From positions 64,270 to 128,269 of the forward strand of contig JBFLWQ010000004.1 in the NCBI GenBank assembly GCA_040757775.1: 64,000 nt of DNA. The letters are read 5' to 3'. The DNA comes from Thermodesulfobacteriota bacterium (lineage in GTDB: Bacteria > Desulfobacterota > UBA8473). This document shows positions 4,075 to 37,292 of the stretch, one piece after another (positions within the stretch are counted from its first letter, which is position 1; each line of letters starts with the position of its first letter). The translations under genes and the position numbers were made by a program. The notes under the pieces were generated by a model that ran no database searches, was not told the origin of the DNA, and saw nothing but the letters and a program-made list of their open reading frames with translations.

Positions 4075-4656
4075 TTATGACCCTACATCAAACACCCTGT
4101 TGTATAATACAATGTTACACATATCATCATGACATTTCTGAATAGCCTCTTTCCTTAGAGGATCTACCTGCATGAAGACCTCACCCTCATGGGTCATCTG
4201 GAGTATCCTTCTCCCTTCAACCTCGGTGCAAAGCACTCCACAGGGCATTTGTGATTCCATAAAAGCAAGGTGTAACGCATCTGCATAAGGTATACTGCAC
4301 GTATTGATATTCTCACACCCACTACACATCTCAATCTCCAGGTTTACATAGCCAGCCTTGATGTTGTTAACGACTTTGGTAATAATTTCATACTCCATGG
4401 TAAAGTCGTGATCATGAGGATCGTGCTCCTGGTCTTCTTCTATAGATGAAACAGGCATCCCTTTACGGGCTGCAATAAACCTCTCATTAGATTGGAGGAT
4501 CAAATCAGCAGCAGCTTTAAGATTATGTGCTACCTCTTTTAACCCCTGTATGTCCGCCTCTTCTGCCCATTTCCTGTATTCTTTAACATGGTCTTCATTA
4601 TGCCTGATCCAATGGTTCAAAAGAACTGCAAGCTTTTTCAACTCGTTCTCTTCCAT
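4075..4656 (-). CDS. His/Cys-rich protein of Co/Ni transport operon (DUF8180-like N-terminus)
   Basis: This 193-residue protein has a helical N-terminal domain (HWIRHNEDHVKEYRKWAEEA, then GLKEVAHNLKAAADL), resembling small helical domains found beside cobalt or nickel transporters. A His/Asp linker HDPHDHD follows at 78-84. The C-terminal half is rich in cysteine: C111, C114 and C120, then PCGVLC at 138-143, then KCHDDMC. These clusters could bind a transition metal or an Fe-S centre. It lies 22 bp after cbiO on the same strand and is probably co-transcribed. A role as a metal-handling accessory of the ECF importer is inferred from content and position; the exact function is unknown. Confidence 0.6.
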   Translation of the reverse strand: MEENELKKLAVLLNHWIRHNEDHVKEYRKWAEEADIQGLKEVAHNLKAAADLILQSNERFIAARKGMPVSSIEEDQEHDPHDHDFTMEYEIITKVVNNIKAGYVNLEIEMCSGCENINTCSIPYADALHLAFMESQMPCGVLCTEVEGRRILQMTHEGEVFMQVDPLRKEAIQKCHDDMCNIVLYNRVFDVGS

Positions 4657-4678
4657 AAATTAACTCCTCTATAGTTGG

Positions 4679-5428
4679 TTACGATTTAAGCATATCACAA
4701 AACTGGCAATTGTAGGTTGGGTCTATTTCGTATCGTTCGAGCACCTTCCTTTTCCCTAAAATATCTTTAACTGACCCGTCTTCTACAACCCTGCCTTCTT
4801 CAAGGATTATTATTCTTTGGCACAGCTCTAGGGCAATAGGCAGGTCGTGTGATACTATTATTTTTGTTTCAGGGAAAGACTTAATGAGGTCTATCAGGAC
4901 CCGCCGCATCTTTGGGTCCAGGTTACTTGTCGGCTCATCAAATATAAGGATTTTAGGTTCCATTGATAAAACTGTTGCAATGGCAGCCCTCTTTTTCTCC
5001 CCGGCACTCATGTGATGCGCAGACCTCTTTTCGAAACCTGATAACCCAATCCTTCCCAGAACCTCCGTAACCCTCTCCTTTGCCTCCTTATCGTTCATCC
5101 CCATATTTATAGGACCAAAAACTACATCATCGTAGACAGTAGGACAGAAGAGCTGGTCATCAGGGTCTTGAAAGACCATACCCACCATCCGCCGAATACT
5201 CTTAAGGTTTTTCCCGTTTACGGATTTCCCAAAGATCTTAACCGCAGCGTTTTTATTCAGTATGCCATTTAAATGTAAAAGCAAAGTAGACTTTCCTGCC
5301 CCGTTATGTCCTATAATGGCTACGGATTCTCCTACAAAAATGCTGAGATTCACGTCCTGTAATGCCAGATTTCCATCCGGATACCTGTAAGTTAGGTTTA
5401 AAATCTCCACTGCCTTTTCTTTGTTCAT
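4679..5428 (-). CDS. cbiO: Cobalt/nickel ECF transporter ATPase CbiO
   Basis: This 249-residue ABC ATPase has Walker A GHNGAGKST (40-48), a Q-loop VFQDPDDQLF, signature SAGEKKR, Walker B ILIFDEPTS and a switch histidine in IVSHD. The DPDDQ Q-loop is characteristic of energy-coupling-factor ATPases. It would form the cytoplasmic motor with CbiQ and the CbiM substrate module for Co2+ or Ni2+ uptake. The C-terminus carries CQFCDMLKS, a CxxC extension that could sense or bind metal. Its ATG overlaps the cbiQ stop by 4 bp (ATGA), showing translational coupling. Confidence 0.92.
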   Translation of the reverse strand: MNKEKAVEILNLTYRYPDGNLALQDVNLSIFVGESVAIIGHNGAGKSTLLLHLNGILNKNAAVKIFGKSVNGKNLKSIRRMVGMVFQDPDDQLFCPTVYDDVVFGPINMGMNDKEAKERVTEVLGRIGLSGFEKRSAHHMSAGEKKRAAIATVLSMEPKILIFDEPTSNLDPKMRRVLIDLIKSFPETKIIVSHDLPIALELCQRIIILEEGRVVEDGSVKDILGKRKVLERYEIDPTYNCQFCDMLKS

Positions 5429-6195
5429 ACCATTAACCTCACACCGGTAACTACAGTGATTAAAATAGACAAAAAGATATAATCCATTGGTCTCAATCTC
5501 TGTATCCTTTCTTTTCTCTTCAAATCGCCATCAAAACCCCTGGAAAGCATAGCAACATACACTCTTTCTCCTCTCTCGTAGCTTCTTATAAAAAGGGTAC
5601 CAATCATATTGCCTATCACCTTTGAGTGCCATATCCATTTCCCACCAAAGCATCTGGAATCTCTGGCTCTTTTCATCCTTTGCGCTTCGTCTGTAATGAT
5701 AAAGAGATACCTGTACATGAAAGACGCAATCGTGGTGAATATTTTAGGCAATCCCAAATCCTCAAATCCCTTCAGTAGTTTTGGAAAGGGAACAGTTGAA
5801 GATAGGAGAATCATACATAGTACACCTATGTATGACTTGACAACCACATTCCACAAGACCATAAGCCCGCTATTAGAAACTGTAAGTCCGCCTATACCCA
5901 GGTTATACCCCCCTCCAATTACATCTTTCTTTAAAAAGGGGATAAATATTGCTACCATAAATACAAAGGGGATAACTATCATTGATCTCCCAAATACATG
6001 ATGGAAGGGGAGGTTTGACAGTAAAAGAACCCCTAGAAGTACTGCAAAATATACACCAAAGCTGAAGTAGGAAGATGCTGGGGTACTAACACATACAACT
6101 GTGAGAAAGAAGAGGCCAATGATTTTGACCCTTGGATCTAATCCATGAATCACACTAGGAATATCACTGTAATTGTCTAAAAACGAGTGTTTCAT
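5425..6195 (-). CDS. cbiQ: Cobalt/nickel ECF transporter transmembrane protein CbiQ
   Basis: This 256-residue integral membrane protein of the EcfT/CbiQ family starts with HGLDPRVKIIGLF, the usual cytoplasmic N-terminus. Hydrophobic segments follow, then the coupling helices with arginine motifs (RARDSRCFGG and, later, AMLSRGF), which match the two A-R-G-type motifs that contact CbiO. It couples ATP hydrolysis to metal release by CbiM. It lies between the cbiN-like gene (6 bp away) and cbiO (4-bp overlap). Confidence 0.9.
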   Translation of the reverse strand: MKHSFLDNYSDIPSVIHGLDPRVKIIGLFFLTVVCVSTPASSYFSFGVYFAVLLGVLLLSNLPFHHVFGRSMIVIPFVFMVAIFIPFLKKDVIGGGYNLGIGGLTVSNSGLMVLWNVVVKSYIGVLCMILLSSTVPFPKLLKGFEDLGLPKIFTTIASFMYRYLFIITDEAQRMKRARDSRCFGGKWIWHSKVIGNMIGTLFIRSYERGERVYVAMLSRGFDGDLKRKERIQRLRPMDYIFLSILITVVTGVRLMV

Positions 6196-30635: not shown

Positions 30636-30710
30636 GGGCGATTAACTCAGCGGGAGAGTGCTACCTTCACACGGTAGAAGTCACTGGTTCGAACCCAGTA
30701 TCGCCCACCA
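30636..30710 (+). tRNA. tRNA-Val (anticodon CAC)
   Basis: Cloverleaf with acceptor GGGCGAT/ATCGCCC, anticodon loop TTCACAC between CTACC and GGTAG, T loop TTCGAAC and encoded CCA. It reads GTG codons. Confidence 0.94.
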
Positions 30711-30718
30711 ATAATTTT

Positions 30719-30801
30719 AGTGCCTCATGGAGAGCTTTGGAAAAAGAATGTTTTTACGAAATATATATTTTCCAAAGCTCTTATAGTAATGGCACTTTTT
30801 A
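30719..30801 (+). terminator. Extended hairpin/terminator after tRNA-Val
   Basis: An outer AGTGCC (30719-30724) pairs with GGCACT (30791-30796), then T5. Inside is a perfect 14-bp stem AGAGCTTTGGAAAA/TTTTCCAAAGCTCT (30731-30744 and 30768-30781). It can end tRNA-Val transcription and also forms the leader just before the kamA-like gene. Confidence 0.6.
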
Positions 30802-30850
30802 GGGCATAGGGAAGGATTAAAATTATGAAAACAAGAGGAGGGTTCTTATA

Positions 30851-32155
30851 GTGGCAGAACAAATAATTAAGGGCATAAAGGGTTTTACACTGCAAAGCAG
30901 TGGCAATCCTTCTTTTCTAGAAAAGGAGGAAGAGAGTATCCCAGAGGAAGAACCTCCCGGTTCCGCCGGGGAGGTTCAAGGTGTAGCCAGGAAAAAGATT
31001 GAATCGAGGTCAAATCTAAGGCTTGTCTTCAACAGAGAGGAAGATGATGATTCATGGAGGCACCTTCTGGCACGAAGTATTACCAAGGCGGTAGACCTGC
31101 CGAGACAACTGTGTATGGATGCCATCACAGTCCACGATGTTATTCGCCGTTATCCCATGCGTATCAATCCCTATTATTTAGGGCTTATCAAGGAGACTAA
31201 TGATCCCATATGGCTCCAGGCAATTCCTGATTTCAGAGAACTCCACGACCCCCTTGGTCTTGAGGATCCCCTGAAAGAAGAAGAACAGAGTCCTGTCCCC
31301 AACATAACCCATAGGTATCCGGACAGGGTTTTGTTTCTCGTTTCCAGCCAATGCGCTATGTATTGCCGTTTCTGTACAAGGAAGCGGAAGGTTGGACGGT
31401 CCCTGACAGTGACGGAAGAGACTATTGCCCTGGGTATCGAATACATCGGGAGACACAGAGAGGTGAGAGACGTTCTCCTTTCAGGAGGTGACCCCCTATT
31501 GCTTCAAGATAAGTCTATAGAACGTATATTAAAGGCACTAAGGCAGATTCCACATGTGGAGATCATACGAATTGGAACAAGGGTTCCCTGCACTCTTCCC
31601 CAGAGGATTACGCCAAGACTGGTCAATATGCTTAAGAAATATCATCCTCTTTACATTAATACCCACTTCAACCACCCCATTGAGATTACTACTGAGGCTG
31701 CAAATGCCTGTGGACGTCTTGCTGATGCAGGGATCCCTCTGGGGTGCCAGACTGTTCTCCTTCGAGGTGTTAACGACAATGCAGCCATTATGAAGCGGCT
31801 CATGCAAAAACTATTACGCATCAGGGTTAGACCCTATTATCTTTACCAGGCAGATTTGACACAGGGTACAGGGCACTTCCGAACCCCAATTGATAAGGGG
31901 CTTGAGATTATAGAAGCCCTGAGGGGGCACACATCAGGGCTTTGTGTGCCGACTTTTGTTGTGGATGTTCCAGGGGGAGGGGGAAAGATTCCTCTCCTTC
32001 CCAACTATCTCCTGCGAAAAGACAAGGATACCCTGGTGCTAAGGAATTATCATAATAATGTTTACTCGTATCCCTTTGCGACAGGAGAAGAAGAAACCGG
32101 AACAGACAGTACATCTGACCATGTGGGGAATTATGAAGATTGCGCTTACTTTTAA
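30851..32155 (+). CDS. kamA: Lysine 2,3-aminomutase (KamA-family radical SAM enzyme)
   Basis: A 434-residue radical SAM, PLP-dependent enzyme. The cluster motif is C168xxxC172xxC175 (CAMYCRFC) and the SAM-binding GGDP is in LLSGGDPLLL. K379 in VPGGGGKIP should hold PLP. D335 (YQADLTQG) and D372 (FVVDVPGGGG) match the two aspartates that bind the substrate side-chain amine in lysine 2,3-aminomutases and that are replaced in glutamate 2,3-aminomutases, so L-lysine to beta-lysine is the expected reaction. An unusual acidic 25-residue stretch (EEESIPEEEPP) lies near the N-terminus. The GTG start follows GGAGG by 11 nt. Two ATP-grasp genes and a GNAT gene follow, overlapping or nearly so. Confidence 0.9.
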   Translation: MAEQIIKGIKGFTLQSSGNPSFLEKEEESIPEEEPPGSAGEVQGVARKKIESRSNLRLVFNREEDDDSWRHLLARSITKAVDLPRQLCMDAITVHDVIRRYPMRINPYYLGLIKETNDPIWLQAIPDFRELHDPLGLEDPLKEEEQSPVPNITHRYPDRVLFLVSSQCAMYCRFCTRKRKVGRSLTVTEETIALGIEYIGRHREVRDVLLSGGDPLLLQDKSIERILKALRQIPHVEIIRIGTRVPCTLPQRITPRLVNMLKKYHPLYINTHFNHPIEITTEAANACGRLADAGIPLGCQTVLLRGVNDNAAIMKRLMQKLLRIRVRPYYLYQADLTQGTGHFRTPIDKGLEIIEALRGHTSGLCVPTFVVDVPGGGGKIPLLPNYLLRKDKDTLVLRNYHNNVYSYPFATGEEETGTDSTSDHVGNYEDCAYF

Positions 32156-33152
32156 TCTCAGGAAAAGCTATGAACTTGATGCTTCCGAACCCCCGGATCG
32201 TTATGTGGAATTCGATTCGGAAGAGACTATCGAGGCTATTAAGACAACCCTGGAATCCCTTGGTCATGATGTGGTGCTGATCGGCGATATAAAGAGCCTC
32301 CTTCACTTTTTGCCGACTTTTGAACTGGACATGGTCTTCAACATCGCTGAGGGTATGGAGGGCCGTTCCAGGGAGGCTCAGATTCCTGCTATACTGGAGG
32401 CATTTCATGTTCCCTATACCTTCTCCGACCCTTTGACCCTTGCCCTGTCTCTACACAAAGGTATGACGAAGGCGATTATAAAAAGTGAAGGAATTCCTAC
32501 ACCAGATTCCTACCTGGTTGAAGAAATTGCGGAGGTTAATGGCAATTTGCCATTTCCTCTATTCATCAAGCCGGCATACGAGGGAACGGCAAAAGGGATC
32601 GACTCCAGGTGTCTGGTCAAGGATTTCGATTCCCTTCATCGAGAGGCTTCAAGGCTTCTTTCCCTTTATCGTCAGCCAGTCCTGGTGGAGCGCTACCTTC
32701 CCGGTAAGGAGTATACAGTGGGAATTCTGGGGACAGGGAGGAATGCCAGGGTTTTGGGCATGATGCAGGTGGTTGTTCGTGACAAGAACCAGAGGAATAT
32801 CTACACCCGGATTGCCAAGGAGGAATGCGAGAATCGGGTTACATATGTTCCTGGTGAAATGACTCGAGTGGAAATAAGGCAACAGATAGAGACTATCTCC
32901 CTGAAGGCGTATCAGACTTTGGGATGCCGTGATGCCGGAAGGGTTGATATCCGTTGTGATGAATTCGGCAACCCCTGTTTTTTAGAGATCAATCCATTGG
33001 CAGGGTTACATCCTACGCATTCGGATCTTTGCATTATAGCCAGTCAGGTGGGAATGAGCTACACGGAACTCATAGAGGCGATCCTTGCCTCTGCTGTTGA
33101 TCGGTATTCAAGCAGGGGCACGGTGCACTGTGCCCCTACCCAATCAAGGTAA
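32133..33152 (+). CDS. D-Ala-D-Ala-ligase-like ATP-grasp enzyme, first copy
   Basis: About 339 residues from the ATG at 32133 (MKIALTFNLRK), which overlaps the end of kamA by 23 bp; an ATG at 32121 is possible. ATP-grasp features in order: MVFNIAEGMEGRSREAQIPA (ligase N-domain), FIKPAYEGTAKGI (phosphate loop), VERYLPGKEYTVGIL, then DAGRVDIRCDEFGNPCFLEINPLAGL with the Mg2+ ligands. It should join an amino acid or peptide carboxylate to an amine through an acyl phosphate. No murC/murF neighbours are present, so a wall-synthesis Ddl role is doubtful. The last 12 codons are supplied by a dispersed palindrome (33113-33139). Confidence 0.85.
   Translation: MKIALTFNLRKSYELDASEPPDRYVEFDSEETIEAIKTTLESLGHDVVLIGDIKSLLHFLPTFELDMVFNIAEGMEGRSREAQIPAILEAFHVPYTFSDPLTLALSLHKGMTKAIIKSEGIPTPDSYLVEEIAEVNGNLPFPLFIKPAYEGTAKGIDSRCLVKDFDSLHREASRLLSLYRQPVLVERYLPGKEYTVGILGTGRNARVLGMMQVVVRDKNQRNIYTRIAKEECENRVTYVPGEMTRVEIRQQIETISLKAYQTLGCRDAGRVDIRCDEFGNPCFLEINPLAGLHPTHSDLCIIASQVGMSYTELIEAILASAVDRYSSRGTVHCAPTQSR
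33113..33139. repeat. Palindromic repeat (GGGGCACGG...CTGTGCCCC) within a gene end
   Basis: Inverted repeat of the same type as 13424-13455. It is translated as part of the C-terminal tail of the first ATP-grasp protein (RGTVHCAPT). Confidence 0.6.
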
Positions 33153-33155
33153 GAT

Positions 33156-34193
33156 ATGACTGTAGAGAGAAGGGCAATTGGCATTGCATATAACGAACCG
33201 GTTTTAACAGGGCATCCCTTTTCAGAGGCATCCCTGGATGTCCTATCTCAGGTGGAGGCTGTAGAAACTGCCCTCGGGAATACTGGCATTTCATCTGTTC
33301 GCATCCCTTTCACAAAGGATGTAGGGCTATTTATCCAAAGGGTGTATAAAGAAGAGATAGGGATGATTTTCAATCTATGCGAGACCGTTGACGAGGATCC
33401 TCGATTTGCTGGCCATCCTGCATCGGTCATGGAGCTAATTGGAATACCCTTTTCGGGATCGCCTTCCATAGCACTGATGCTTACAGCCGACAAGCTATTG
33501 ACAAAACAATTGCTCAAAGCAGAGGGGATAAGAACCCCGATATACAGGTTTTACGACAGTATGACCTCCTTCTTTCCTCATACCCTGAGATATCCTGTTA
33601 TTGTGAAACCGAGGTTCCAGGAAGCCAGTATTGGTATCGACCAGGATTCGATATTTGCAGATGAAGGTCAACTGCGGAAAGGACTTCCAGAATTTTACGA
33701 GCGTTTCGGACCAGTTCTGGTAGAGGAATACATCGAGGGAAGAGAGTTCAACGTCTCCCTTTTAGGTTATCCTTTAGCACGGGTGCTTCCCATTGCAGAG
33801 ATCGATTTTTCAAATTTTCCTGAAAGCCTGTATTCAATTGTAGGTTACCATGCCAAATGGGATATTGAATCCTTCGAATACCACAATACACCCAGAAGAT
33901 TCCCGGAGGTGCTTCCCCATGGTCTGATGAGCAAAATAGAGAAAGTTGCCCTTGGTTGTTTCCGTGTTTTCATGCTAAGGGATTATGGCCGGATCGACAT
34001 AAGGGTCGATAGTAAAGGTAAAACATATGTCCTTGAGGTCAATGCTAATCCATGCCTGAGTCCGGACGCTGGCTTTGCGGCAGCCATTGATAAAGCCGGG
34101 ATGACATATTCTGATTTTATAAAAGATCTTTTAGACTTTATGACCGAAAGGGCACCAAAATATGTTTATCAGACCCCTTGTCTTTCAGGATAG
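33156..34193 (+). CDS. D-Ala-D-Ala-ligase-like ATP-grasp enzyme, second copy
   Basis: This 345-residue paralogue of the preceding gene starts 3 bp after it. The motifs MIFNLCETVDEDPRFAGHPA, VIVKPRFQEASIGI, VEEYIEGREFNVSLL and DYGRIDIRVDSKGKTYVLEVNANPCLSPDAG follow the same order. The substrate loop and the phosphate-binding loop (RFQEASIG rather than AYEGTAKG) differ from copy one, so the two probably act on different acceptors or in sequence. The 3' end overlaps the GNAT gene by 32 bp. Confidence 0.85.
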   Translation: MTVERRAIGIAYNEPVLTGHPFSEASLDVLSQVEAVETALGNTGISSVRIPFTKDVGLFIQRVYKEEIGMIFNLCETVDEDPRFAGHPASVMELIGIPFSGSPSIALMLTADKLLTKQLLKAEGIRTPIYRFYDSMTSFFPHTLRYPVIVKPRFQEASIGIDQDSIFADEGQLRKGLPEFYERFGPVLVEEYIEGREFNVSLLGYPLARVLPIAEIDFSNFPESLYSIVGYHAKWDIESFEYHNTPRRFPEVLPHGLMSKIEKVALGCFRVFMLRDYGRIDIRVDSKGKTYVLEVNANPCLSPDAGFAAAIDKAGMTYSDFIKDLLDFMTERAPKYVYQTPCLSG

Positions 34194-34635
34194 ATCTGAG
34201 ATATTAAGTCTCATAGAAGGCACAAAAACCTTCAATGAAATGGAGATTCAGGTGGCTGCGGAGGTAATCGATGATGCCCTTCGCCATCCGGAAAAAAGCG
34301 ATTACCATATCTTTTCTGCTGTTGATGCCTCTGACTTACCAAAAGGGTATATATGCTTCGGCCCTATTCCTATGACACAGGACGGGTATGATCTCTATTG
34401 GATTGCTGTGGATAAAATGGCATCCAGACAAGGAATTGGAGGAAAACTTCTGGAATTTATGGAGGCAAATCTTAGGAAGAAAGGAGCGAGGCGCGTTTAT
34501 GTAGACACATCTTCATCCCCTCCCTACAAGGCTGCAAGAGCTTTTTATGAAAAGCACGGCTATCAACTTGTGTGTGTACTTGACGATTTTTATAGAGAGG
34601 GTGACCATAAGATGATATTTATGAAGGAGCTTTAA
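34162..34635 (+). CDS. GNAT-family N-acetyltransferase
   Basis: A 157-residue acetyltransferase with the acetyl-CoA pyrophosphate loop RQGIGGKLL after the beta4 strand (LYWIAVD) and C-terminal AARAFYEKHGYQLV (motif B). It is much shorter than AblB, the beta-lysine acetyltransferase of about 270 residues, and looks like a RimI-type single domain. As the last gene of the kamA/ATP-grasp operon, it may acetylate a beta-lysine-derived product. The target is inferred from position only. Confidence 0.82.
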   Translation: MFIRPLVFQDRSEILSLIEGTKTFNEMEIQVAAEVIDDALRHPEKSDYHIFSAVDASDLPKGYICFGPIPMTQDGYDLYWIAVDKMASRQGIGGKLLEFMEANLRKKGARRVYVDTSSSPPYKAARAFYEKHGYQLVCVLDDFYREGDHKMIFMKEL

Positions 34636-34665
34636 GTCGTTATTTCTCCTTTTAAGCTCCTTTTT
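34624..34665 (+). terminator. Intrinsic terminator of the kamA operon
   Basis: AAGGAGCTTTAA, which includes the GNAT stop codon, pairs with TTAAGCTCCTT (one bulge) and is followed by T5. Confidence 0.7.
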
Positions 34666-34689: not shown

Positions 34690-34860
34690 CTAGACGGCAA
34701 GCCGAGTATGAACCTCTTTCGCAATCTTTGAACCCACCTCTTGTGCAGTAATTTTTAAATCGTAACTGGTTTGTATGTTCAGCCAGAACTGCGGTGTTGT
34801 TCCAAAGTAGCGTGCCAATCTGAGAGCCGTATCGGGTGTAATGGCACGTCGTTCACGCAC
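34690..34860 (-). pseudogene. HigA/VapI-type antitoxin remnant
   Basis: A 56-codon frame ends at the TAG at 34690 and reads RERRAITPDTALRLARYFG and TTPQFWLNIQTSYDL, the second half of the HTH and the C-terminus of HigA-type addiction-module antidotes. The first roughly 40 residues are missing and an in-frame stop lies 1 codon upstream of the GTG at 34860. No HigB toxin gene is adjacent. It is a relic of a toxin-antitoxin pair. Confidence 0.75.
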
Positions 34861-34974
34861 TATTTATTGACAACAAAAATGTAATTCTTTATTGTTTGAT
34901 CTAATCGTTTAGCACTCAATAAATGAAGACAGCGGAATATATCAATTAAAATACAAAGTGTTAGGGGTCCTTTT

Positions 34975-36558
34975 ATGTTTGATATAGTGATCTCTAATGG
35001 GAATATAATAGATGGTTCCGGTAGATTGCCCTACAGGGGGAGTATTGGAATAAAGGGTGACATGATTTTAAAGATAGACTCTGGCAATTCCCTTTCAGGT
35101 AAAACGATTATTGATGCAGGGGGTATGGTTGTATCTCCTGGATTTGTAGATATTCACGGTCATTCCGACTATTTTCTTTTGGTAAACCCGCAGGCAGAGA
35201 GCAAGGTTCGTCAGGGGGTAACCACAGAGATCGGGGGGAACTGTGGCTATTCAGCAGCTCCAATCTTTGGAGAAGAGGCACAGGAAAGGAAGGTTGAATA
35301 CCAGAAACAGTTTTCCCTGGATTTAAACTGGTATACTGTTCAGGAATACAGCGAGTTACTTAAAAGAATTGGTATTTCCATGAATTTTGCCATCCTTCTA
35401 GGCCACAATACCATCCGTGCTTCGGTAATGGGCAAAGAGAACAGAAACCCTGGTAAAAAAGAGTTAGAAGATATGTGTATTGCTGTGGAGAAGGGTATGA
35501 AAGAGGGTGCCTTTGGCCTCTCAACAGGTCTTATCTATTCCCCGGCATGTTTCTCTGAAATAGCTGAAATAGTTGCCCTGAACAATGTGGTAAAAAGGTA
35601 TAAAGGGGTGTTTACAACCCATATGCGGAGTGAGGATGACATGGTGGTAGAGGCTATTAATGAGGTGATTGAGGTAGCGAGAAAAGCCGATGTTCCCCTT
35701 CAGATATCCCACTTAAAGACTTCCAGGGAAAGGAATTGGAATAAACTGGACAGGATGTTTAAGGTTATAGAAAGTGCCATAGATGAGGGACTGGATGTAA
35801 CCTGTGATCGTTATCCATACATCGCTTCAAATACAGGGCTTCAGGCTATACTTCCTGACTGGACAACTGAGGGGGACAAGGAAACCAGAATCAGCAGGTT
35901 AAAAGATCAGGCAGTAAGGGAGAAAATAGAGAATGAGATAGTAAAAAAACACCCTGAACCGGATTATTGGAAGACGATCGTAATATCCACAGTAGTATCA
36001 GATAAGAATAATAAGTATCAAGGTATGAGTATTGCTGACGCTGCAGGTATGGCTGGAAAAGAGCCTTTTGATTTCACTATGGATGTCCTGATAGAGGAAG
36101 AGATGAACGTTTCTGCCAACTATTTTACCATGTCTGAGGAAAACCTGGTAAAGATATACAGGAAACCATACATTATGATAGGGTCAGATGCTGCCTGCCG
36201 TGCCGATTATGGTCCTCTGGCAGAGGGCAGCCCTCATCCCAGGGCATTTGGAACCTTTCCAAGGGTATTGGGTGTATATGTAAGAGAGAAAAAAATTATG
36301 GACTTGCCGACAGCAGTGAAGAAGATGACATCCGATCCATGCAGAAAGCTGGGTATTCAAAAAAGGGGTGAGTTAAGGGAGGGGTTTTATGCTGATCTGG
36401 TGATATTCAATCCGGATACGATAGTAGACAAGGCTACCTTTTCTGAACCTGTCCAGTATCCTGAAGGGATTGAGTATGTTATAGTTAATGGGAATATTGC
36501 TGTAAAGAAAGGTGAGCATACAGGGTGTAAGAATGGGAGGGTATTGAGAAAGACATGA
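34975..36558 (+). CDS. N-acyl-D-amino-acid deacylase (D-aminoacylase family)
   Basis: This 527-residue amidohydrolase has metal-binding HGHSD after SPGFVDI, the cysteine ligand in GGNCGYSAAP characteristic of D-aminoacylases, then THMRSE, QISHLKTS and the catalytic IGSDA aspartate. Family members hydrolyse N-acyl-D-amino acids, and some act on related N-acylated or dihydropyrimidine-like compounds. The N- and C-terminal beta-sandwich strands (VISNGNIIDGSG, then YVIVNGNIAVKKG) are complete. The next gene overlaps it by 4 bp (ATGA). Confidence 0.85.
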   Translation: MFDIVISNGNIIDGSGRLPYRGSIGIKGDMILKIDSGNSLSGKTIIDAGGMVVSPGFVDIHGHSDYFLLVNPQAESKVRQGVTTEIGGNCGYSAAPIFGEEAQERKVEYQKQFSLDLNWYTVQEYSELLKRIGISMNFAILLGHNTIRASVMGKENRNPGKKELEDMCIAVEKGMKEGAFGLSTGLIYSPACFSEIAEIVALNNVVKRYKGVFTTHMRSEDDMVVEAINEVIEVARKADVPLQISHLKTSRERNWNKLDRMFKVIESAIDEGLDVTCDRYPYIASNTGLQAILPDWTTEGDKETRISRLKDQAVREKIENEIVKKHPEPDYWKTIVISTVVSDKNNKYQGMSIADAAGMAGKEPFDFTMDVLIEEEMNVSANYFTMSEENLVKIYRKPYIMIGSDAACRADYGPLAEGSPHPRAFGTFPRVLGVYVREKKIMDLPTAVKKMTSDPCRKLGIQKRGELREGFYADLVIFNPDTIVDKATFSEPVQYPEGIEYVIVNGNIAVKKGEHTGCKNGRVLRKT

Positions 36559-37292
36559 GCAAATGGCAGCCCCTTATTGGAGTTACCTCGGATTACCATA
36601 AAGGGGGAGATATATTCAAAGGACCGGCGTATTTTATAGGAGAAAATTATATCTCAGCGGTTAGAGAAGCAGGAGGGATACCTGTAATCCTGCCTTACAG
36701 TTCGGATGCTAAGGTAATAGAGAAGCTTGCAGAGAGGATTGATGGCCTGCTCATAACAGGGGGAAATTTTGATATAAATCCTGTCTTCTATGGAGAAGAT
36801 ATTATTGATAAAATTGGAGAGTTAAATAATAAAAGAACCAGCTTCGAGATGGAGATTGCCAGGATTGCATTGAGAACAGATATGTCTGTATTGGGTATCT
36901 GTGGTGGTGAACAGTTGTTAAATGTAGCAGGTGGTGGCAGTCTCTATCAAGACATAGAGGTACAGGTAAAGGGGGCTTCTAACCATCAGCAGAAGATGCC
37001 GAAATCAGAAACGCACCATTCAGTAATTATAGAGCCTGACACAAAATTGTACTCCATCCTGGAGTGTGAAACTTTAGAAGTAAACAGTACCCATCATCAG
37101 TCCATAAAGGAAGTAGGGAAGGGGTTTGTCTTCAATGCAAAAGCCCCTGATGGGATTATAGAAGGGATAGAGAGTGAAAGTCACCGGTTTGTCTTAGGGG
37201 TTCAATGGCATCCCGAGGCTCTCTACCAGAAGGAGGAAAGATTCAAGAGACTTTTTGAGACGTTTATTAAAAGTTGTAAAAAAAGATCTTAG
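36555..37292 (+). CDS. Peptidase C26 / PuuD-like class I glutamine amidotransferase
   Basis: This 245-residue protein carries the glutamine-amidotransferase triad: nucleophilic Cys in LGICGGEQLLN, and His and Glu in QWHPE near the C-terminus, with LLITGGNFDINP upstream. Gamma-glutamyl-GABA hydrolases and related enzymes that cut gamma-glutamyl bonds have this form. Its 4-bp overlap with the D-aminoacylase suggests a shared catabolic role, for example breakdown of D-Glu- or gamma-Glu-containing peptides, which is an inference. Confidence 0.85.
   Translation: MSKWQPLIGVTSDYHKGGDIFKGPAYFIGENYISAVREAGGIPVILPYSSDAKVIEKLAERIDGLLITGGNFDINPVFYGEDIIDKIGELNNKRTSFEMEIARIALRTDMSVLGICGGEQLLNVAGGGSLYQDIEVQVKGASNHQQKMPKSETHHSVIIEPDTKLYSILECETLEVNSTHHQSIKEVGKGFVFNAKAPDGIIEGIESESHRFVLGVQWHPEALYQKEERFKRLFETFIKSCKKRS

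Follow-up and report, generated by a model that had tools for sequence, protein, structure and literature searches.

The locus analysed here raises the question of what a bacterium would make from lysine with a predicted lysine 2,3-aminomutase, two ATP-grasp ligases of the D-alanine-D-alanine ligase (Ddl) fold and a GNAT acetyltransferase, all encoded in one operon. The operon occupies positions 30851-34635 of a 64,000-nucleotide stretch of contig JBFLWQ010000004.1 (hereafter the window), taken from a draft genome (3.1 Mb, 50 contigs) of a Thermodesulfobacteriota bacterium. A first-pass annotation had proposed that beta-lysine is joined here to one or two amino acids and acetylated, giving an osmolyte, a wall cross-link or a small peptide. 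We find a real and conserved operon that apparently represents an undescribed pathway, and the likely product is now closer to a polyamine-like amide than to an osmolyte or wall cross-link; beta-lysine may act as the acceptor through an amine, instead of being linked to amino acids via its carboxylate. Tentatively, and with doubt slightly outweighing belief, we read the operon as a small biosynthetic pathway in which beta-lysine would serve as a carboxylated putrescine in acylated diamine amides whose acetylation would be reversible.

Four genes in a conserved order

The genes of the operon are as follows.

30851..32155, plus strand: KamA-family radical SAM and pyridoxal 5'-phosphate (PLP) enzyme of the lysine 2,3-aminomutase type, 434 aa, GTG start
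32133..33152, plus strand: Lig1, Ddl-fold ATP-grasp ligase, 339 aa, overlapping kamA by 23 bp
33156..34193, plus strand: Lig2, second Ddl-fold ATP-grasp ligase, 345 aa, of a clade apart from Lig1
34162..34635, plus strand: GNAT acetyltransferase, 157 aa, overlapping lig2 by 32 bp

All four same-strand open reading frames (ORFs) were confirmed where the first-pass annotation had placed them, with its two overlaps and the 3-bp gap between lig1 and lig2. The Pfam domains are Radical_SAM and LAM_C in KamA, Dala_Dala_lig_C in each ligase and GNAT in the fourth protein.

To follow the gene order, contigs of named genomes were scanned with a Lig1 alignment, and the best 80 of 546 loci were kept. Where the contig leaves room, 61 of 69 loci have KamA immediately before Lig1, 62 of 68 have Lig2 immediately after it and 46 of 55 have the GNAT downstream; the complete order KamA-Lig1-Lig2-GNAT, which the first-pass annotation had suggested seeking in other genomes, is present in 41 of the 50 loci that leave room at either end. 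Together with the non-Ddl character of the ligases described below, this answers the grounds for refutation which that annotation had named, save the one concerning a product. Thirteen phyla are represented among the labels of the 80 loci (seven are unassigned), and loci holding the complete set of genes belong to 8 named phyla, with five more unassigned. Since most loci are metagenome bins, single phylum labels may be wrong; all four genes are also found in a cultured strain, Desulfatitalea alkaliphila M08but (L121). Within the genus of the window, three of four genomes (G002-G004) hold all four genes in the same order, and the fourth (G001) has KamA and the start of Lig1 before its contig ends. 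The exceptions comprise Lig1 alone in Phyllobacterium pellucidum (L128) and in a Spirochaetales bin (L130), KamA and Lig1 without Lig2 or GNAT (L100), two loci lacking the GNAT (L064, L131) and one with the GNAT upstream (L120). In a set of 59 genomes, the window's own included, Lig1 occurs in 23 by a count made by eye; 22 of these score at least 250 bits, and G001, where the contig end cuts the gene, scores 213. KamA lies within about 5 kb of Lig1 in 18 of the 23. Searching plasmids with Lig1 yielded 546 records; none reaches 60% identity, and the ten rows listed are at about 30-34%.

For most pairs, the distances within the four families also agree. Across 52 loci with all four genes (the same-genus loci L038-L040 left out), pairwise distances correlate at 0.62 for KamA-Lig1, 0.59 for KamA-Lig2, 0.56 for Lig1-Lig2, 0.66 for Lig2-GNAT and 0.35 for KamA-GNAT, each above all 500 shuffles. 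Gene fusions were seen as well: 1) Lig1 with Lig2 in 1 of the 80 loci; 2) Lig2 with the GNAT in 5 of the 80, plus L034 and L047, making seven other loci in all; 3) in 9 of the 80, the pathway GNAT at the C-terminal end of a protein, behind a central deacetylase and an N-terminal part that is GNAT-like by a weak Pfam match below cut-off. Order kept across phyla rules out chance neighbourhood, and the fusions, as far as sequence can tell, mark the genes as one pathway, in keeping with the first-pass annotation. Gene order and fusions together suggest the sequence KamA, Lig1, Lig2, GNAT.

A KamA of the lysine type

The only match of the window KamA among solved sequences is the lysine 2,3-aminomutase of C. 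subterminale (2a5h, 420 bits). The residues D335, D372 and K379, which the first-pass annotation had named as lysine-type, align with their counterparts in the 2a5h chain, the two substrate aspartates there being presumably D293 and D330. Together with C168, C172, C175 and R177 they are identical in 92 of 92 KamA proteins (window included, 12 from outside the cluster), so that the window enzyme has the CxxxCxxC cluster, the PLP lysine and both substrate aspartates expected of a lysine 2,3-aminomutase. Its best-scoring model is the AblA equivalog TIGR03820, at 487.1 bits vs. a cut-off of 525.4; it reaches 444.5 vs. 650 for glutamate 2,3-aminomutase (TIGR04368), 343 vs. 600 for the arginine model and 233 vs. 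369 for EpmB. In glutamate 2,3-aminomutase, Lys and Asn replace the two substrate aspartates, both of which are present here. Lysine is thus our best guess for the substrate, despite the score below the equivalog cut-off.

The genome of the window has no second KamA match. It likewise has no match to AblB (TIGR03827), the acetyltransferase of the known N-epsilon-acetyl-beta-lysine pathway, in line with the point of the first-pass annotation that the GNAT does not resemble AblB. Across the 59 genomes searched, AblB exceeds its cut-off in two, where it adjoins a KamA of its own and the Lig1 search scores less than 200 bits. KamA-AblB pairs without the ligase pair, at L045 and L031 (relatives G032 and G052), serve as controls.

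A KamA tree was built by a quick method from 58 rows, taking every second KamA-bearing locus of the 80; in this and the other quick-method trees, starred branches are less sure. The window KamA falls outside the main body of cluster KamA proteins and groups with the KamA of L036 and five KamA genes lacking a neighbouring ligase. The cluster label needs six changes on this tree, at least four of them by way of the starred branches. Judged from the tree, more than one KamA lineage has come to lie with ligases of this kind, an argument that the product of KamA is needed there.

Two ligases distinct from Ddl

Lig1 and Lig2 share the fold of Ddl. Their AlphaFold models (mean pLDDT 92.7 for Lig1 and 94.2 for Lig2) have Ddl as the best solved match, with Z 33.4 and 2.3 A across 293 residues for Lig1, and Z 33.8 and 2.4 A across 296 residues for Lig2; solely Ddl-type chains appear among the 50 entries listed. 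The two proteins pass the Pfam Dala_Dala_lig_C cut-off of 24 at 96.4 and 86.5. In NCBIfam, their best Ddl scores are 159.9 and 120.9 vs. a cut-off of 243, among the best 25 of 38 rows for Lig1 and the best 25 of 39 for Lig2. A genuine Ddl is encoded separately in the same genome, scoring 195 bits vs. 98 and 88 for the ligases.

With this Ddl of the same genome as control, and with Ddl residues placed by E. coli DdlB numbering, the ATP and Mg residues proved to be kept: in Lig1, K109, K146, E186, K229, R270, D272 and N287 are present in 96 of 96 sequences, and in Lig2, K113, K151, E190 and K234 in 87 of 87, with R279 in 85 (two gaps) and D281 in 84 (two gaps, one Glu). The residues specific to Ddl are lost. 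Its histidine is replaced by Glu in every Lig1 (96/96) and every Lig2 (87/87), and its tyrosine by Trp in every Lig2 (87/87); at the same position Lig1 has Glu in 73 of 96 and Tyr in none of the 93 residues listed. A quick-method ligase tree (77 rows: one in three Lig1 and one in five Lig2 sequences from the 80 loci, the ligases of the other loci and the genome's own Ddl) parts Lig1 and Lig2 into two distinct clades, with a support of 98 on a starred branch. From their residues, Lig1 and Lig2 look like active ligases with differing substrates, and the claim that they are unlike ordinary Ddl enzymes has held up. An ordinary Ddl identity was rejected on the NCBIfam scores, the residues and the separate Ddl, even though the Pfam cut-off is passed.

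A sister ligase clade beside putrescine-forming enzymes

What the ligases might act on is suggested by their relatives. Two of these have the ligase pair without an adjoining KamA, next to a pyruvoyl-dependent arginine decarboxylase and an arginase-family enzyme. Two loci, L138 and L161, were tested, and in each the arginine decarboxylase and the agmatinase exceed their curated cut-offs. A search with this Lig1 variant (Lig1') in 297 genomes of the phylum gave a match in 37, of which 18 at more than 480 bits were followed; the remaining 19, including the genome of the window, score below 300 bits. By tblastn inside the fetched stretches, the neighbour of Lig1' is arginine decarboxylase in 13 of the 18 loci, accompanied by agmatinase in 11 of these, and KamA in three (L036, L158, L165), with two undecided at contig ends. 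KamA and arginine decarboxylase occur together in none of the 18 within those stretches. The 13 arginine-decarboxylase loci form one clade of the Lig1 tree (support 90), the three KamA loci falling outside; on the Lig2 tree they require two changes. A further 102 loci, most of them KamA-type, gave no match to arginine decarboxylase and a single agmatinase, at the KamA-type locus L080, where the GNAT is fused in frame to it (220.8 bits vs. a cut-off of 174.3).

In beta-lysine (3,6-diaminohexanoate) the amines are on C3 and C6, four carbons apart as in putrescine, whereas those of alpha-lysine are five apart. Acting on lysine, KamA would hence yield a diamine that has the spacing of putrescine and bears a carboxymethyl arm.

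Some of these loci hold further genes. In L138 a third, RimK-like ATP-grasp gene (4589-5557) lies between arginine decarboxylase and Lig1'. A methyltransferase is encoded after the GNAT in L164, which is of undecided type, and in six loci of the putrescine type (L138, L160-L164 and L166 together), suggesting further modification there.

The deacetylase is a second pointer towards polyamines. Fused or not, it is found at more than 200 bits in 20 of the 80 loci, 16 of which also have KamA. Its family affinity was tested with one member, that of L121, which matches acetylpolyamine amidohydrolases (APAH) best (257.7, 252.5, 214.4 and 213.6 bits), with 209.3 bits to HDAC6 and 92 bits to HDAC10.

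Proposed pathway

We surmise that KamA would convert L-lysine to beta-lysine, a 1,4-spaced diamine carrying a CH2-COOH arm, after which Lig1 and then, probably, Lig2 would each activate a carboxylate with ATP and join it to an amine, most likely in acylation of the diamine. The GNAT would acetylate a remaining primary amine, and in some lineages an acetylpolyamine-type deacetylase would remove the acetyl group again. In the sister form, the diamine would be putrescine, derived from arginine via the neighbouring arginine decarboxylase and agmatinase genes, so that diamine acylation by two ligases would be the simplest step common to both types of system. The earlier idea of a new-looking pathway around beta-lysine is thereby retained; its osmolyte or wall cross-link product is not, as nothing was found in favour of either, and the outside evidence (arginine decarboxylase and agmatinase standing in for KamA, the GNAT-agmatinase fusion and the deacetylase) points to polyamine-type chemistry.

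More speculative is the wider reading that this is an unrecognised class of metabolites in many phyla, in which Ddl-fold ligases would acylate beta-lysine or, in the sister form, putrescine, and acetylation and deacetylation would switch charge, making a polyamine system outside the putrescine-spermidine set. Lysine 2,3-aminomutase is known to serve the acetyl-beta-lysine osmolyte and the modification of elongation factor P (EF-P). If our proposal is correct, the enzyme would gain a role beyond these two, sulfate reducers, planctomycetes, bacteroidetes and others would share a conserved operon for an undescribed amine metabolite, and 'D-alanine--D-alanine ligase' would be a misleading name for such proteins. 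No description of the operon was seen among the titles and abstracts listed from the open-licence literature; an earlier account in a review of ATP-grasp amidoligase neighbourhoods is possible.

Comparison with known systems

The closest chemical parallels are found in polyamine conjugation. In trypanothione synthesis, an ATP-grasp domain adds glutathione to both ends of spermidine at the expense of ATP (PMC11124245). GspS and TryS resemble the proposed pathway in ATP-grasp acylation of one or both polyamine ends, with an amidase domain acting on the conjugates (PMC11124245), but they use glutathione, whereas the operon encodes a pair of Ddl-fold ligases and the precursor would be a beta-amino acid. 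No GspS-type synthetase appears among the ligase matches listed at E 0.001 (all Pfam rows; the best 25 of 38 and of 39 NCBIfam rows). The fungal E-64 pathway, with the ATP-grasp enzyme Cp1B and Cp1D, likewise performs two successive ATP-dependent ligations ending on putrescine, cadaverine or agmatine; it differs in that its second enzyme is of the ANL type and in that Cp1B is described as sharing no detectable sequence identity with any other ATP-grasp enzyme characterised so far (PMC12568646). A block of the epsilon-amine by acetylation ahead of ligation has been proposed for another system (PMC2922099).

Other likenesses are to the enzymes themselves. The operon shares with AblA/AblB a lysine 2,3-aminomutase and a GNAT, but it lacks AblB, has two ligases, and its KamA scores under the AblA cut-off. 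Lig1 and Lig2 share with Ddl and VanA the fold, the Pfam domain and the ATP and Mg residues, but differ in the replaced Ddl-specific residues, in falling short of the listed NCBIfam cut-offs and in their linkage to KamA or arginine decarboxylase. Bacterial APAH enzymes are the nearest solved relatives of the L121 deacetylase, while the pathway deacetylases differ from them in the weak N-terminal GNAT-like domain and the C-terminal GNAT fusion, and are not part of the window operon.

Evidence against the diamine reading and alternative explanations

Several observations weigh against beta-lysine as a diamine acceptor in a polyamine-like pathway. In the ligases, R270 and S297 of Lig1 are both kept in 96 of 96 sequences; their Ddl counterparts presumably hold the acceptor carboxylate, and the acceptor could accordingly be an amino acid. 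We looked for a residue signature that would tell KamA-linked ligases from decarboxylase-linked ones, without a convincing result, and no ligase column fits recognition of the extra carboxylate in the one type vs. the other. Regarding the sister clade, the single Lig1 clade and the two Lig2-tree changes mean that the swap counts as one or few events, not 13; the genome of the window has no PvlArgDC; and the GNAT was not seen in seven putrescine-type loci out of 13, each belonging to family f20, among which L155 offers only 0.75 kb after Lig2' and hence little room for it. As to the deacetylase, four of the 20 loci that have it show no KamA, and three of these are cut by a contig end; in L126 KamA is missing despite about 5 kb of room. 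Of the four matches of L121 to polyamine enzymes, two exceed its HDAC6 score by little, and the deacetylase must be regarded as optional because the window operon lacks it and the sole family match in that genome is elsewhere. Lastly, the Lig1-GNAT distance correlation of 0.21 is inside the shuffled range (up to 0.27).

One alternative, the reading of the first-pass annotation, is that beta-lysine is a carboxylate donor, with the ligases making a short beta-lysyl peptide with one or two amino acids that is acetyl-capped and serves as solute or signal. Both ligases have the fold of Ddl enzymes, which activate an amino acid carboxylate, Lig1 keeps the acceptor-site residues just described, and an M20 peptidase gene adjoins Lig1-Lig2 in one locus, L136. 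The sister ligases, on the other hand, sit with enzymes that form putrescine, yet putrescine has no carboxylate, and the feature common to both types is the 1,4-diamine. We consider a beta-lysyl peptide unlikely, if still deserving of attention.

Improbable is a variant N-epsilon-acetyl-beta-lysine osmolyte pathway, in which KamA would work with a different GNAT and the ligases would serve something else. KamA and a GNAT are both there, with AblA as the best KamA model; the score nevertheless stays below the AblA cut-off, AblB is absent from the genome and elsewhere accompanies its own KamA, and the ligases adjoin the GNAT or are fused to it.

A role in macromolecule modification, such as beta-lysylation of a protein or tRNA by analogy with EF-P and EpmA/EpmB, would draw on KamA-family enzymes supplying beta-lysine for EF-P and on the deacetylase and GNAT in these loci. 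It seems very improbable given that KamA is under the EpmB cut-off, that no non-core gene occurs in more than 12 of 97 loci when ORFs of at least 100 aa are clustered, and that the deacetylase matches polyamine enzymes best.

Least credible is that Lig1 and Lig2 are ordinary or variant D-Ala-D-Ala (or D-Ala-D-X) cell-wall ligases with KamA and the GNAT as chance neighbours, for although no Pfam, NCBIfam or solved family lies nearer than Ddl and the Pfam cut-off is passed by both, the listed NCBIfam Ddl cut-offs are not, a genuine Ddl is encoded elsewhere in the genome, the Ddl-specific histidine is altered in every member, and the order kept across phyla contradicts chance neighbourhood.

Operon boundaries and neighbouring genes

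Two further features delimit the operon.

30836..30842, plus strand: ribosome-binding-site-like AGGAGGG upstream of the kamA GTG, read from the sequence
34623..34665, plus strand: hairpin with T run, likely operon terminator, overlapping the end of the GNAT gene

The 3' hairpin, whose arm runs into the T run, has a folding energy of -13.5 kcal/mol (z -3.7), equalled by 0 of 200 shuffles. It is absent from the output of a simple consensus terminator scan, which is why the closing terminator of the first-pass annotation is here called likely, not certain.

Just 5' of the operon lies a tRNA-Val (30636-30710), followed by a strong hairpin (z -4.9, within 30636-30790) that is perhaps the terminator of the tRNA. 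On the 3' side, a short stop-to-stop stretch on the minus strand (34690-34866) has a translation that by eye resembles the C-terminal part of an XRE/HigA-type antitoxin and, having no start, is probably a remnant. Beyond it are a D-aminoacylase-like amidohydrolase gene (34975-36558) and a C26 peptidase gene (36555-37292), overlapping by 4 bp. These two adjoin the cluster in the same-genus stretch L040 (G004); they were not found in the 2.5 kb after the GNAT in L038, and L039 offers just 1.6 kb for this comparison. Operon membership of the pair was dropped, neither gene being in L038.

Among the ORF clusters of the 97 loci, the one seen in 12 loci is by appearance an antisense frame, and another, named by eye, resembles a sigma-54 regulator and is present in 11. 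A cysteine-rich protein of about 190 aa is encoded in five loci (L096, L109, L118, L120 and L127), in L120 between KamA and Lig1.

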